Below, piece after piece: positions 17,893-23,560 of a stretch of 23,560 nt of DNA (positions are counted from its first letter, which is position 1; each line of letters starts with the position of its first letter). Location: positions 1 to 23,560 of the IMG/VR virus record IMGVR_UViG_3300031669_000238; one strand, written 5' to 3'. A model generated the notes under the pieces. It was given only the letters and a program-made list of their open reading frames with translations, searched no databases and had not been told where the DNA came from. Made by a program: the position numbers and the translations under genes. Origin of the DNA: a virus.

Positions 17893-18972
17893 ATGAGCAA
17901 CCTTTTGCAAAGTTTCATTGACGTGACTGGGAACCCTTTCGCGGCGATCGTGGAAGACGGCATCCAGGCTGGCGACGTGGTGTCGTGGATCGATACCGGA
18001 TCGTATGCCCTGAACGCTCTCCTGAGCGGTGACATCTTCAAGGGCGCGCCTTCCAACAAGGTGACAGCCCTGGGTGCCGAAAGCAGCACCGGCAAGAGCT
18101 ACATCGTGCTCAGTGTCTTGAAGGCGTGGCTCGAGCAGCGCCCAACCGGCATCGCCTTCATCTTCGAGTCGGAGTCTGCCTACACCAAGCAGATGCTCGA
18201 GGAGCGTGGCATCGACATCAAGCGCGTGGCAATCATGCCTGTCACAACCATCCAGGAGTTCCGGACGCAGTCCCTGAAGATCCTGGACAACTACGAGAAG
18301 ACAAAGGTCAAGGACCGAGTCCCGTTGTGGTTCGCGCTGGACTCCTTGGGCAACCTGAGCACCACCAAGGAGTTGGAAGACACCTCCGCGGGTGTTGAGA
18401 CGAAGGACATGACGCGCGCCCAGCTGATCAAGGCTACGTTCCGTGTCTTGACGCTCCGCCTGGGTCGTGCCGATGTTCCGCTCTGGATCACGAACCACGT
18501 GTATGACGACGTGGGCGGCGGTCCGTATGCCCAAAAAGTCATGTCAGGTGGATCGGGCTTGATCTATGCTGCCTCCACCATTGTGACGCTCTCGAAGGCT
18601 CGCGACAAGGATGAGAAGCTGGGCGCCGGTACCAACCTGCGTGGTGTCACCATCACGGCGCGTGCCACCAAGTCGCGCTTGACTCGCGAGAACTCGATGG
18701 TCAAGCTGTACCTGGACTTCAACAAGGGCCTGGGTCGATACTTCTACTTGGCGGAGTTGGCTGAGGCTGGCGGCGTCTTCAAGAAGGTCGCGACACGTCT
18801 TGAACTGCCGGACGGACGCAAGGTGTTCCAGTCCGAGATCAACAAGAACCCCGAGAAGTATTTCACCCAAGAGATCCTCGAGGCCATCAATGTCTACGTG
18901 AACAAGACGTTCCCGTATGGCGGCGGCCCTGAAGGTGAGGATGGAGCTGAGGAGATCGAAAATGCTGACTGA
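17893..18972 (+). CDS. uvsX: UvsX recombinase (RecA-like)
   Basis: A 359-aa strand-exchange ATPase (T4 UvsX is 391 aa) that forms filaments on ssDNA with UvsY. Walker A GAESSTGKS (61-69), Walker B LWFALDS (145-151), the SGGSGLIYAAST segment (218-229) in the DNA-binding L2 area, and a strongly acidic C-terminal tail (EGEDGAEEIENAD) as in T4. GTGGAG (17882-17887) lies across the polymerase stop and five bases before the ATG. The order polymerase-uvsX is that of T4. The following gene starts inside its last codons, so translation is coupled. Confidence 0.95.
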   Translation: MSNLLQSFIDVTGNPFAAIVEDGIQAGDVVSWIDTGSYALNALLSGDIFKGAPSNKVTALGAESSTGKSYIVLSVLKAWLEQRPTGIAFIFESESAYTKQMLEERGIDIKRVAIMPVTTIQEFRTQSLKILDNYEKTKVKDRVPLWFALDSLGNLSTTKELEDTSAGVETKDMTRAQLIKATFRVLTLRLGRADVPLWITNHVYDDVGGGPYAQKVMSGGSGLIYAASTIVTLSKARDKDEKLGAGTNLRGVTITARATKSRLTRENSMVKLYLDFNKGLGRYFYLAELAEAGGVFKKVATRLELPDGRKVFQSEINKNPEKYFTQEILEAINVYVNKTFPYGGGPEGEDGAEEIENAD

Positions 18973-19240
18973 TGAGCAAATCCCATTCGCGCGAGAGATG
19001 ATCCAGCTGTTCATGGAGGGAGAGCCTGGAGACATCATTCTCGAGATCAACTTCGAAAAGGTTGATGGTTCGCAGCGCACCCTGTATGCCACCAATCGCA
19101 TTCCCGAGAGCGAGATTCCGAAGGATGTGCATGAGTCGAAACTCGACCTAAGTACTCACGCAAGGGTCTTCGATAAGGAGGCCCAGGGGTGGCGGACTAT
19201 CATCCTGAAGAACATCAACTCCATCACGGTGCAACTATGA
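18962..19240 (+). CDS. WYL_2/DUF2693-like SH3-barrel small protein
   Basis: A 92-aa protein whose pattern, INFEKVDGSQRTLYATN...IPESEIP...ARVFDKEAQGWRTIILKNINSI, matches my recollection of the small phage WYL_2 (DUF2693) family: a TKxDGTxR strand, an IP turn and a final WR-x-hydrophobic strand. Such proteins adopt an SH3/Sm-like barrel of unknown function. GAGGAG (18949-18954) stands seven bases before the ATG, inside the end of uvsX, and the stop overlaps the next ATG. Position after uvsX suggests a replication or recombination accessory, but this is inference only. Confidence 0.8.
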   Translation: MLTDEQIPFAREMIQLFMEGEPGDIILEINFEKVDGSQRTLYATNRIPESEIPKDVHESKLDLSTHARVFDKEAQGWRTIILKNINSITVQL

Positions 19241-19521
19241 CCGAGCTCCAGACAGACAAGAATATCGTCATCGATCAGGCTGCCGTTAAGGAGGACGGCA
19301 GCCTGATGTTCACGGTGTGGTGTCGCGACAACCCCGATTTCCTGTACGCCTACGACAAGGTGCACCTGAGAGAGGAGTGTGATGGCGGATTCTATCTGGA
19401 ATTCACGCTCTCGATTTCCTCTCGCAAAGATTCTCACGAAATCAAGTCAGAAGTGCTTGACAAGAAGGGTGAATCTATCATACAATACCTATTCGAAACA
19501 ACGACCGGGGTCAAGCTGTAA
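19237..19521 (+). CDS. Unknown 94-aa beta-rich protein
   Basis: It starts at the ATG overlapping the preceding stop (ATGA), with no strong ribosome-binding site of its own. The product is acidic with alternating strands: SLMFTVWCRDNPDFLYAYDK, then GGFYLEFTLSISSRKDSHE, and ends LFETTTGVKL. There are no metal-binding clusters or membrane segments. It may form a pair with the SH3-barrel protein encoded just upstream. The 3' end contains a sigma-70-like promoter in the direction of folE. No family recognised. Confidence 0.75.
   Translation: MTELQTDKNIVIDQAAVKEDGSLMFTVWCRDNPDFLYAYDKVHLREECDGGFYLEFTLSISSRKDSHEIKSEVLDKKGESIIQYLFETTTGVKL
19457..19486 (+). promoter_or_regulatory. Probable promoter for the DNA-modification cluster (P6)
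   Basis: TTGACA (19457-19462), an 18-bp spacer, TACAAT (19481-19486). It lies inside the end of the upstream coding region, so part of the match could be by chance, but the placement ahead of folE and the CTTGACA context shared with P1, P2 and P4 support it. The start would be near 19493, leaving a 119-nt leader. Confidence 0.55.
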
Positions 19522-19611: not shown

Positions 19612-20292
19612 ATGAGCCACGAACGAACGAAATGCGACCCAGTCTTGGGCGAACAGGTCCACCAGCATCTTCTCACGGTGGGCGTCGAAACACCAACCAC
19701 CTTCCTGCTTACATCTGTGCCAACCGACGAGAAAATCAAGTCGATTGAGTATCACATGGAAAATATCCTGAACGTATTGGGTCTCGATCTTACTGACGAC
19801 AGCCTCATGGAAACGCCGAAGCGTGTTGCCAAGATGTACGTCAACGAACTCTACTGGGGCTTGAAGCCTGAGTTCTTCCCGAAGTGTACTACTGTCCAGA
19901 ACAAGATGGGCTACGACGAGATGGTCCTGGAAAAGGACATCACGATCCTGTCGGACTGCGAGCATCACCTGCGCACCATTATCGGGGTGGCACACATTGC
20001 CTACATCCCGAAAGAGAAGGTCTTGGGTCTTTCGAAACTGAATCGTGTCGCGGATTACTTCGCCCGACGTCCACAGATCCAGGAGCGTCTCGCGGAGCAG
20101 ATCTTCCATGCGCTCTGCTTCATCCTTGGAACCGATGACGTGGCGGTTGTCATCGATGCCGAACATTTCTGCGTGAAGCAGCGCGGCGTGCAGGATTCCA
20201 ACTCGCATACCATCACGTCCAAGCTGGGTGGCTGCTTCAAATCTGACCCGACTGTTCGTTCGGAATACATGTCCCTCATCAACGCGAAGTGA
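19612..20292 (+). CDS. folE: GTP cyclohydrolase I (FolE)
   Basis: A 226-aa enzyme close to E. coli FolE (222 aa). It opens GTP to dihydroneopterin triphosphate, the first step to 7-deazaguanines and folate. Zinc ligands C116 and H119 (SDCEHH) and C187 (EHFCVKQRGV) are present, with the family signatures DDSLMETPKRVAKMYVNEL, GLSKLNR and ARRPQIQERL. The N-terminal VHQHLLTVGVETP is like the E. coli start. GAGGAG lies six bases before the ATG. In a cluster with queC, queF and dpdA the product should feed DNA modification. queD and queE, the next pathway steps, are not in the window and may lie beyond it or be supplied by the host. Confidence 0.95.
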   Translation: MSHERTKCDPVLGEQVHQHLLTVGVETPTTFLLTSVPTDEKIKSIEYHMENILNVLGLDLTDDSLMETPKRVAKMYVNELYWGLKPEFFPKCTTVQNKMGYDEMVLEKDITILSDCEHHLRTIIGVAHIAYIPKEKVLGLSKLNRVADYFARRPQIQERLAEQIFHALCFILGTDDVAVVIDAEHFCVKQRGVQDSNSHTITSKLGGCFKSDPTVRSEYMSLINAK

Positions 20293-20296
20293 AATC

Positions 20297-21025
20297 ATGA
20301 GCATTGCGAAACGCGCGCTTGAACTGCTGCCTGACAGTGCTGGAGCTGTCGTCTGTCTCTCGGGCGGCTTGGACTCCACTACCACGCTTCGGCTGGCGGT
20401 GGAGAAATATGGCCCCTCGAAGGTGCGGGCGGTCAGCTTCAACTACGGACAGCGACAGAAGATTGAGTTGCAGCTGGCAGCCAAGTCCTGTGCCCGCCTG
20501 AGTGTTGAGCATCGGGTGATCGACATTCCGTTCCTGAACACCATCAACCAAGGTTTCAGCGCCAACGTGGACACTGGGATCGAGATGCCAACCATCCATG
20601 ACATCTTGGGTGACCCGCAGCCTATCACCTACGTGGCCAATCGCAACATGATCCTGATGTCGATCGTGGCATCCTTCGCGGAAACTGTCGGGAGTGATTT
20701 GATCCTGGCGGGCTTCCAAAGCAACGACACCTACGGGTATTGGGACACCACGCCGGACTTCATCAAGAAGATGAACGCCGTGCTGGGACTCAACAGGCAG
20801 GCAGGGCTGCAAATCATCTGTCCGTTCGTGGAGTTGAACAAAAAGGAGGAGATCCAAGCTGTCTTTGAACTCGACGGCAATCTGGACTTGTTTTCCAGCA
20901 CCATTACATGCTATAATCCTGATTCCGAAGGACGGTCCTGCGGGACTTGCCCTTCCTGTGCCGAACGCATCCTGGCATTTCAGAAACTGGGTTTCAAGGA
21001 TCCTATCGTATACGTGGAGAAGTGA
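20297..21025 (+). CDS. queC: 7-cyano-7-deazaguanine synthase (QueC)
   Basis: A 242-aa PP-loop ATPase that converts 7-carboxy-7-deazaguanine and ammonia to preQ0. SGGLDST (22-28) is the ATP-binding loop; C205, C215, C218 and C221 (TCYNP...CGTCPSCAER) form the zinc site. The usual TYVPGRN segment reads TYVANRN (111-117). The frame is open upstream, but that part overlaps folE; the ATG at 20297 lies four bases after the folE stop with a weak ribosome-binding site, so coupling is likely. The next gene is a glutamine amidotransferase; in some phages QueC and such a domain are fused. Confidence 0.95.
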   Translation: MSIAKRALELLPDSAGAVVCLSGGLDSTTTLRLAVEKYGPSKVRAVSFNYGQRQKIELQLAAKSCARLSVEHRVIDIPFLNTINQGFSANVDTGIEMPTIHDILGDPQPITYVANRNMILMSIVASFAETVGSDLILAGFQSNDTYGYWDTTPDFIKKMNAVLGLNRQAGLQIICPFVELNKKEEIQAVFELDGNLDLFSSTITCYNPDSEGRSCGTCPSCAERILAFQKLGFKDPIVYVEK

Positions 21026-21026
21026 A

Positions 21027-21677
21027 ATGTGTGGTATCTTTGCCAGTTTCGACCGTGTCAAGCTCGAGCAGCTTTTCAGCCTGAACTACAAGCGGGGCCA
21101 GAAGGGTTTCTCCTTGAACGGTTTCACGACCTACAAGGGTGGCATGGTGGTTTGGGAGTCGCGCCATGACAGCGCCAAGCTGGAGATCCAGCCGCAGTAT
21201 CTGTCGACCTACAATATCTGTCATGTGATCGCGCCCACCACAACGGAATCGATATATCACCCTGCCTTGCGTGAAAGCGTGGGCGGTGAGTCCGAGGGCT
21301 TCACGGCTCTTTGGCATAACGGTATCTTGAAGGAAGGTACCATTTCGAAGCTGCAGGAGACAGACAACACAACCAACTGGGACACCCAGCTGATGGTGAA
21401 TCGTCTCCACAACATGCCGTTCGAGGAGATGGGCGACTTCTTGAGCTCCTTGGAAGGGTCGTTCGCCTGCATCCTGTATCGCGATTCCCAGCTGTTCGTG
21501 TTCCGAAATGAACTGGTGCCGCTGTATTGCGACAACATGCTGAGCATCAGCAGCGTGAAGTTCAAGTTCTCCATGTCAATCACTCCGGGCGTGGTATGGC
21601 GCATGAATCTCGAGACCAACAAGCTCGAGGACACTGGCGTCCGCTTCACGACCATGAACAACCCTTACGCCCTCTGA
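21027..21677 (+). CDS. Stand-alone class II glutamine amidotransferase
   Basis: A 216-aa Ntn-type glutaminase domain with the nucleophile at the N-terminus (M-C2-G-I-F). LWHNGIL (94-100) corresponds to the conserved glutamine-binding HNG segment, and the protein ends without a synthetase partner domain. It directly follows queC (ATG two bases after the stop, with GGAG seven bases upstream). In phage 9g the same kind of domain is fused to QueC (Gat-QueC) and is linked to 7-formamidino-deazaguanine (G+) in DNA. Here it is a separate protein, so it may supply ammonia to QueC or act on preQ0. The start at ATG 21027 is fixed by the need for Cys2. Confidence 0.88.
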   Translation: MCGIFASFDRVKLEQLFSLNYKRGQKGFSLNGFTTYKGGMVVWESRHDSAKLEIQPQYLSTYNICHVIAPTTTESIYHPALRESVGGESEGFTALWHNGILKEGTISKLQETDNTTNWDTQLMVNRLHNMPFEEMGDFLSSLEGSFACILYRDSQLFVFRNELVPLYCDNMLSISSVKFKFSMSITPGVVWRMNLETNKLEDTGVRFTTMNNPYAL

Positions 21678-21687
21678 GGTATTCGTT

Positions 21688-22605
21688 ATGACGCAGCAAA
21701 GCATGTCCGACATCGCCGGCAAGTCGCTTGGTGACTCAACCTCGTACGCTGTCTTCACCGACACGTTCGATCCATCACTCCTGAATCCGATGCCACGTTC
21801 CTTGGCTCGGGAGGGTTGGGGGATTGATGGTGCGCGCATGGGAGGGTTCGATCGTTGGACCTCCCATGAGGCAACATTCCTCCTGGATTCGGGTCGCCCG
21901 ATCGCGGGAACTCTGGTCTTCATCTACGGCGCGAACTCGGAGTTCATGATCGAGTCCAAGTCCATGAAGTTGTACCTGAACTCGTTCGACATGTGCCGCA
22001 TGGGTGCCAACCTGGAAGAAGCCATCAAGGCATACGAGAGCCAGATCAACATCGACCTGTCGCAGACTCTCCAGACCAAGGTACAGGTCAGGTTCTTCGA
22101 TTCCAAGGACTACTTGAAATCGGCAGTGGATCCGTTGTTTGGCTGCAACGACCTGGCGCGGCTGGAAGGCGTCGAGGATGTGGAGTTTGTGGATTTCACG
22201 GGGGAGGACAATCACATCGAGACTGTCGAGTTCGATAGCGTCTTGGATCAGCAGTGGTACACCAACGCCCTGCGTTCACGCTGCCGCCATACCAAGCAGA
22301 AGGACACTGGCACCGCAACCATTCGGTATCGTGGCACCAAGCGCATCCGCCCTGTCTCAATCCTGAAGCAGATCGTGAGCCTGCGCGAAGTGAACGAATT
22401 CCACGAGTTCTGTGCCGAGAAGATCCTGACCGAGATCGACAAGAAGGTCAACAACATGGACTGCCTGGGCGTGGCGTTGTACTATGCCCGCCGCGGATCG
22501 CTCGATATCAACCCCGTTCGCTGGATTCGCGGTACCGAGGCCTCGGCATGGTACAGCGAGATCTACAACGTGAACCTCATCGTCGAAAAGACGCAGGGGC
22601 AGTGA
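21688..22605 (+). CDS. queF: QueF-type 7-cyano-7-deazaguanine reductase
   Basis: A 305-aa protein of the two-domain E. coli QueF type (282 aa), which reduces preQ0 to preQ1 with NADPH. The N-terminal half has LGDSTSY...PRSLAREGWGI and the QueF motif ESKSMKLY (89-96); the C-terminal half has catalytic C199 and D206 with the usual seven-residue spacing, the glutamate in NEFHE (E240), and YYARRGSLDINP. The segment between C199 and D206 (CRHTKQKD) and just after it departs from E. coli's CLITHQPDWGS, so activity may differ. TGAGGT lies upstream of the ATG. With QueF present, preQ1 is a possible base for DpdA. Confidence 0.92.
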   Translation: MTQQSMSDIAGKSLGDSTSYAVFTDTFDPSLLNPMPRSLAREGWGIDGARMGGFDRWTSHEATFLLDSGRPIAGTLVFIYGANSEFMIESKSMKLYLNSFDMCRMGANLEEAIKAYESQINIDLSQTLQTKVQVRFFDSKDYLKSAVDPLFGCNDLARLEGVEDVEFVDFTGEDNHIETVEFDSVLDQQWYTNALRSRCRHTKQKDTGTATIRYRGTKRIRPVSILKQIVSLREVNEFHEFCAEKILTEIDKKVNNMDCLGVALYYARRGSLDINPVRWIRGTEASAWYSEIYNVNLIVEKTQGQ

Positions 22606-22606
22606 G

Positions 22607-23560
22607 ATGGGTGACCGGAAACTGTCGTATGTGTTCTCGGCACCAAACTACCTTCGCCTCTATCCCACCAAGTGGGGCAAGGACAACCCCGAGGAGGACA
22701 AGCTCCTCACCGACATCGTGTCGAGGGGTCTGGAGCGAGTTCGCGCCCGCTGTAAGGTAATCATGGGTGACGAGTCTCTCAAGACTTCTATCCTGTTCAA
22801 CGGATACACCGAATATCGTCACGGTCCCTACTTCCGAGACCGCAATCAGTTCAGCTTCGATCAGCTGTATGCGGACTCGGGCGGTCTCCAGGTTGTCACG
22901 ACTGGCAAGAAGCTGACGCATGAGCTGAAGCAGCAAATCTATCAGAACCAGAAGTCAGCCGACTATGGCTTCTGCTTCGACGAGATCCCGCTCGGTATCA
23001 AGGAGGGTGTGGACCAGGAGACTGGCAAGCACCGTTCCCAAACCGAATCCAAGCTGTTCTTCCCCGAGAACTTCGAGGCGTGTGCCATTAAGACAGCGCA
23101 CAACGTGAAGGACCAGACGGATGCGTTCCGTGGGTCCAACACCAAAGCCTTCTACATCATGCAAGGCAACACGACTGACGAGATGTTTCGTTGGTTCAAG
23201 CATGGCGTCGAGATTGTTGGGAAGGAGGGCTTCGAGCATATTCAAGGCATCGCCCCAGCAGATACTTGCATGGGCAACGGTGCATTGGAGTCGGTCGATA
23301 TGATCGTGGCGTATCATCGTTGTGTGGAGGAGTTCGGGCAGGAATACGCCAAGAAGCATCTGCACCTTCTGGGTGTGGGTTCGCCTTCGCGTCTCCTGCC
23401 AGCCGTGTTCCTGAAGGAGTCGGGGTTCATTCCGCAGAACGTCGAGATCAGCTTTGACTCCTCGAGCTCCAGCATGTCGTATGTCATGGGCAACTTCGTG
23501 GACTCGGACGGCAGTCGCCCGAACCGTGACCCCGTGAAGACCATCACCATGTTCGAGCAT
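22607..23560 (+). CDS. dpdA: DpdA-type DNA 7-deazaguanine transglycosylase (3' truncated by window)
   Basis: The ATG is one base after the queF stop and the frame stays open to the window edge; 318 codons are visible. It is related to tRNA-guanine transglycosylase: DSGGLQ (90-95) parallels the TGT DSGGFQ active-site segment (D90 as general base), CFDEIPLG (123-130) resembles the region downstream, HLLGVGSPSR (253-262) matches the HLLGIG motif, and ISFDSSSSS (281-289) carries a candidate nucleophile D284. The N-terminal VFSAPNYLRLYPTKWG is not of the tRNA enzyme type. Its neighbours make DNA, not tRNA, the likely substrate: it would swap guanine for a 7-deazaguanine. The C-terminal part is outside the window. 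Confidence 0.9.
   Translation, partial: MGDRKLSYVFSAPNYLRLYPTKWGKDNPEEDKLLTDIVSRGLERVRARCKVIMGDESLKTSILFNGYTEYRHGPYFRDRNQFSFDQLYADSGGLQVVTTGKKLTHELKQQIYQNQKSADYGFCFDEIPLGIKEGVDQETGKHRSQTESKLFFPENFEACAIKTAHNVKDQTDAFRGSNTKAFYIMQGNTTDEMFRWFKHGVEIVGKEGFEHIQGIAPADTCMGNGALESVDMIVAYHRCVEEFGQEYAKKHLHLLGVGSPSRLLPAVFLKESGFIPQNVEISFDSSSSSMSYVMGNFVDSDGSRPNRDPVKTITMFEH

Follow-up and report, generated by a model that had tools for sequence, protein, structure and literature searches.

The window, by which we mean the whole stretch of DNA analysed here (23,560 bases, the entire IMG/VR record IMGVR_UViG_3300031669_000238), ends in a real, probably working 7-deazaguanine cluster, predicted to modify DNA with preQ1; clusters of this kind are already known in T4-like phages. 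It is likely that this cluster makes preQ1, by means of a Gat-fed QueC and a QueF acting on free preQ0, and that DpdA2 inserts preQ1 in place of some guanines. In the proposed pathway, FolE, together with QueD and QueE (both outside the window), would lead to CDG, which QueC would convert to preQ0 with ammonia from the neighbouring Gat. QueF would then use NADPH to reduce free preQ0 to preQ1 before insertion, and DpdA2, with its ADTC loop, would swap guanine for preQ1 in the DNA, which should thereby be shielded from restriction enzymes.

Gene content and neighbourhood of the cluster

The genes and the loop discussed below are as follows.

19612..20292, + strand: folE, GTP cyclohydrolase I (PF01227, TIGR00063 and NF006824 above cut-off)
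20297..21025, + strand: queC, preQ0 synthase, predicted Gat-coupled type (PF06508 and TIGR00364 above cut-off)
21027..21677, + strand: Gat, stand-alone class II (Ntn) amidotransferase-fold protein (PHROG 12378, motifs, modelled fold)
21688..22605, + strand: queF, predicted NADPH-dependent preQ0 nitrile reductase, long two-domain type (PF14819 and PF14489)
22607..23560+, + strand: dpdA2, predicted DNA guanine transglycosylase, 318 codons (similarity, Asp motifs, modelled fold)
23258..23281, + strand: ADTCMGNG, putative substrate loop (DpdA2 residues 218-225) (QueF-linked in the DpdA2 set)

An arrangement of five adjoining pathway genes whose family matches run over nearly the full length is not due to chance. 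The preliminary description had recognized a head-to-tail 7-deazaguanine cluster of five genes, and the gene identities, the shared strand and the small gaps between the co-directional ORFs (4, 1, 10 and 1 nt from folE to dpdA) were all borne out. It had also placed the cluster directly behind uvsX; in fact, a pair of small ORFs, at 18917-19240 and 19237-19521, comes in between, as does a gap of 90 nt. The first ORF encodes a small WYL_2-like (Sm-like barrel) protein, slightly under the Pfam cut-off, and comparable small ORFs lie at the same position in a related IMG/VR locus, L005. At the other end, the readable sequence stops inside dpdA, which lacks a stop codon because the record ends there (codon 318). 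Elsewhere in the window, a small ORF (from 434) and the helicase ORF (from 822) share a near-identical N-terminus, MARIWSxLQNNIFDF (434-480 and 822-868), as if a gene start had been duplicated.

Neither queD nor queE was found within the 23,560 bases of the window. Similarly, a search for PTPS/QueD in longer contigs of the DpdA2 lineage of the window (L035, 126,753 b; L038, 67,143 b) found none, except that L036 has queD. KVP40, pf16 and ACP17, unlike these long contigs, do have QueD. Since queD is missing from both the window and the lineage contigs, the host may supply QueD.

No match was found for the window dpdA product in Pfam or NCBIfam, the TGT family models included, and its only family was PHROG 10773, annotated 'unknown function'. 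Peptide patterns taken from this single protein confirmed no close relative; an alignment query did succeed, and the window protein is 40% identical to KVP40 DpdA2 (KVP40.0122) over 250 aa and 30% identical to nt-1 DpdA2 (YP_008125322) over 305 aa. The TGT-type catalytic Asp residues are present (D90, D125 and D284, plus S285, invariant in 41 DpdA2 sequences). The C-terminal zinc motif of TGT, CxCxxC, is absent from the full-length L005 orthologue, and the window protein ends before that region. Because neither Gat nor a DpdA2 profile matched any PDB sequence, the structures of both proteins were modelled. The DpdA2 model has the barrel fold, and Foldseek matched it to Thermotoga maritima TGT (2ash, E 9e-8) and to DpdA (7ui4, E 6e-7). 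Thus, the possibility raised earlier that the transglycosylase might prove to be a tRNA-type TGT gained no support, there being no TGT family match and the product being DpdA2-like. From the DNA chemistry of phages nt-1 and 6E35.1a, we infer that the window DpdA2 would act on DNA and not on tRNA.

The window QueF scores above cut-off with PF14819 and PF14489 and reaches 177.8 with TIGR03138, which is under the curated cut-off of 293. Over almost its whole length it can be aligned to solved QueF structures (3bp1, E 5e-32), and it preserves the catalytic Cys and Asp, FHE, the NADPH site ESKSxKLYLNS and the Arg-bearing RRG..DINP motif. Since the catalytic and NADPH residues are retained, it is predicted to be a reductase rather than QueF-L.

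Known relatives and the base in the DNA

The preliminary description knew of no T4-order phage with this exact set of genes. However, a tblastn search of 50,697 phage records with Gat, QueF and dpdA located the combination in KVP40, 6E35.1a, some 40 further KVP40-like Vibrio records and pf16, and in IMG/VR dozens of loci combine folE, queC, gat, queF and dpdA2. Four of these (L005, L034, L035 and L039) have the gene order of the window, followed by queE. Pseudomonas phage pf16 (Chakrabartyvirus) carries folE, dpdA2, queF, queC and gat in one block (gp77-gp81) and has the ADTC loop, although in a different gene order and with 34-51% identity to the window proteins. We know of no measurement of the DNA bases of pf16. 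By its polymerase and gene order, the window belongs with ACP17, Mendera and X1, T4-like phages that have DpdA2 and no QueF. Acidovorax phage ACP17 (Busanvirus), the nearest cultured backbone with the gene order of the window, shares gp46, clamp, clamp loader, polymerase and uvsX, followed by folE and dpdA2, and its FolE is 69% identical to that of the window. In ACP17, however, the region is without queC, gat and queF and the DpdA2 loop reads GAASLG, so another base is expected there.

The closest chemical precedent comes from the Vibrio phages 6E35.1a and KVP40 (Straboviridae), which combine folE, dpdA2, queF, queC and a split Gat in one block with the ADTC loop. They differ from the window in gene order (queD-folE-dpdA2-queF-queC-gat), in protein identity (31-60%) and in having queD adjacent, which the window lacks. 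Mass spectrometry of 6E35.1a DNA showed approximately 15% of dG to carry a modification whose mass is that of dPreQ1 (PMC12028318). As 6E35.1a has the same gene set, the window phage is much more likely to contain dPreQ1 than any other modified base. In an earlier reading, the base had been left open among preQ0, preQ1, G+ and an amide form; the 6E35.1a set narrows this to dPreQ1, with which both the loop and QueF agree.

Vibrio phages nt-1 and CZ01 (Straboviridae) likewise have folE, dpdA2, queC and split Gat, but no QueF; an ArcS-like (DUF5591) gene is found instead, and the loop is SGAAIG. The modified bases in nt-1 DNA are dPreQ0 for the most part, along with some dADG and a trace (0.02%) of dG+ (PMC6884629). 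The assumption that Gat points to G+ therefore fails as a rule, given that nt-1 has a stand-alone Gat without QueF and mainly dPreQ0. Comparison of 6E35.1a (Gat and QueF) with nt-1 (Gat and QueC, no QueF) suggests that QueF, not Gat, would set the product.

The DpdA loop and its association with QueF

The DpdA2 alignment shows the TGT catalytic residues and, as one striking feature, the stretch GIAPADTCMGNG, which was placed by hhalign on GYAVGGLAVGEP of E. coli TGT. With one profile (E 3e-5), the DpdA2 loop aligns with the preQ1-binding loop of TGT, GGLAVGE, and a deeper profile shifts this alignment; the pattern of DpdA2 proteins without QueF, G-x-A-x-G-x-x-A-x-G, fits TGT well. In TGT, residues Leu231-Glu235 form this loop, which makes contact with the 7-substituent and switches between guanine and preQ1 (PMC3660597).

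The comparison covered 114 distinct DpdA2 proteins from phages and IMG/VR, of which seven were left out because their contigs end at or soon after dpdA. Among the 107 informative sequences, the ADTC loop was present in all 38 with a queF gene nearby and in none of the 69 without one. Several apparent exceptions to the loop rule were rejected: the contigs of L046/L215, L048/L208, L062 and L066 stop past dpdA before queF could become visible, and L240 does have a short QueF, scoring slightly under the first cut-off. No QueF above cut-off was found in the whole contigs of the QueF-negative loci. On a DpdA2 tree built without the loop columns, the ADTC loop and QueF each change six times. They change together in four of four independent, well-supported pairs (p 0.125 by sign test, the lowest value that four pairs can give), and two of the switches separate near relatives (nt-1 from KVP40, and L195 from L197). 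A parallel is seen in DpdA1, where the QueF side has SPANDS (Dp-1, dPreQ1) or SPANDT (phiSM, QueF-positive) and the other side, namely 9g (dG+), CAjan (dPreQ0) and the Rosebush-type MasterPo, has GG[LM]VG.

Many marine DpdA2 loci (L076-L112), together with ACP17 (L004), contain folE, queD and queE and no queC near dpdA2, and their loop is mostly GAAALG. For these loci, the probable base is one that needs no QueC, either carboxy- or plain 7-deazaguanine.

Read most simply, the Asp of the loop would bind the charged aminomethyl group, and reduction by QueF would precede insertion. Hutinet 2019 (PMC6884629) did not decide whether phage QueF works on the free base or on DNA, which gives room for the opposite order, in which DpdA2 inserts preQ0 and QueF then reduces it within the DNA to give dPreQ1 with residual dPreQ0. 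We regard this order as improbable. Each gain or loss of QueF is accompanied by a change of the DpdA loop, as expected only if DpdA itself meets preQ1, and the active site of QueF is of the bacterial free-base type.

Just as improbable is a pathway in which preQ1 is an intermediate and an enzyme encoded past the contig end makes a derivative such as formyl or methyl preQ1. The record does stop within dpdA, and related queF-queC-gat clusters with a different, short DpdA-like protein (L006, L011, L013, L016 and L017) carry a formyltransferase-like gene. However, L005, the nearest relative, has only two small ORFs between dpdA and queE, and next to its cluster there was no sign of a formyltransferase-like ORF.

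The formyltransferase clusters have an arrangement of their own, seen in L006 (4777-8481) and also in L009, L011, L013, L016 and L017, in the order folE, short DpdA-like gene (~265 aa), formyltransferase-like gene, P-loop kinase, queF, queC and gat. By their gene content, they look like makers of formylated preQ1. In Flavobacterium phage immuto (L032), a comparable set has no gat next to queF.

QueC and its proposed amidotransferase partner

The window QueC scores 164.7 with TIGR00364 (cut-off 150.3) and keeps SGGLDS (SGGxDS) and the Cys zinc motif; it also reads VANRN. In canonical QueC, the motifs YxQxHxxE and YPDC sit at the mouth of the pocket (PMC13329287). The window protein has instead YGQRQKIE, in which the His is replaced, and YWDTT, a type of pocket that it shares with its Gat-positive relatives. 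Throughout the Gat-positive loci with readable motifs, QueC has YGQ[KR]Q and YWD[TC] in these places, and the fused Gat-QueC is likewise without the His of YxQxHxxE. In contrast, QueF-positive DpdA2 clusters without Gat (L217, L218, L228, L229 and L060) have an ordinary QueC with YGQxH and YPDC; the Gat-less QueF-positive clusters entered the QueC motif comparison as L051, L052, L060 and L061. As its pocket motifs match those of the Gat-positive relatives and not those of canonical QueC, the window protein is predicted to be a Gat-coupled variant.

The window Gat gives a weak sequence match (GATase_7, E 1e-3). Its AF2 model (pLDDT 86) has a PurF/GlmS-type fold, with PurF 1ao0 as the best Foldseek match (E 1e-8). 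The class II amidotransferase features are present, namely an N-terminal Cys (C2), WHNG, the Asp of WDT and the Ntn fold. However, the Arg that binds the glutamine carboxylate is missing from the split Gat family, being Ile in the window and Gln in other split Gats, while fused Gat-QueC does have it at that position. Because the family lacks this Arg, glutaminase activity of Gat is not assured. Upstream of folE in L005 (5496-6110) lies a second Gat-like gene, whose product is without the N-terminal Cys and the HNG motif and is probably a catalytically dead Gat paralogue.

In the loci seen, Gat adjoins or sits close to QueC, and no Gat without QueC was found among the DpdA2 loci. A role as partner of QueF was rejected, since nt-1 and CZ01 keep Gat beside QueC without QueF. 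As judged from this distribution, Gat goes with QueC and not with QueF. In otherwise similar clusters, QueC and Gat are exchanged together for an ordinary QueC, and QueF and the ADTC loop are kept. Because Gat tracks the type of QueC and the two are swapped together, Gat would alter the ammonia source of QueC and not the product of the cluster. Thus, Gat is most likely a putative ammonia-supplying partner of QueC rather than a G+ maker.

The least probable alternative is that QueC and Gat form a split Gat-QueC archaeosine synthase, so that the DNA holds dG+, alone or beside dPreQ1. Gat does adjoin QueC and has the class II fold, and Enterobacteria phage 9g, which also has FolE and a DpdA, yields dG+ in its DNA with a fused Gat-QueC (PMC6884629). 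However, 9g differs in that its Gat-QueC is fused and retains the glutamine Arg, in its lack of QueF and in its DpdA1 loop GGLVG, whereas the two proteins of the window are separate ORFs (20297-21025 and 21027-21677). Against a split synthase stand the mainly dPreQ0 of nt-1, whose trace of dG+ is explicable by its ArcS-like gene, the dPreQ1 reported for 6E35.1a (PMC12028318) and the clusters in which plain QueC replaces QueC and Gat while QueF and the ADTC loop stay. A 'Gat-QueC' match in Xanthomonas phage PhiXhv-15 was set aside, as it lies outside any 7-deazaguanine cluster.

Beyond the prediction of preQ1 for the window, we lean, by a little, towards a more general scheme. The DpdA loop would contain a code for the base, in which Asp-bearing loops (ADTC in DpdA2 and SPAND in DpdA1, independently reached) stand for preQ1 from QueF and other loops for preQ0, G+ or a QueC-less base, and the stand-alone Gat would be a dedicated ammonia subunit docking onto the changed pocket mouth of a specialized QueC. 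We found no published description of the loop code or of the QueC-Gat pairing in literature of incomplete coverage, so an earlier description is possible.

The cluster in the window adds one more T4-like lineage to the known range of an anti-restriction trait, and the pairing of Gat with QueC gives a nameless phage family, PHROG 12378, a likely role. The QueF-linked loop also bears on points left open by Hutinet 2019, namely the order of QueF action and insertion, and the relation of sets of QueF and amidotransferase genes to the base in the DNA. If the loop code is true, sequence would suffice to predict which base hundreds of uncultured phages have in their DNA.
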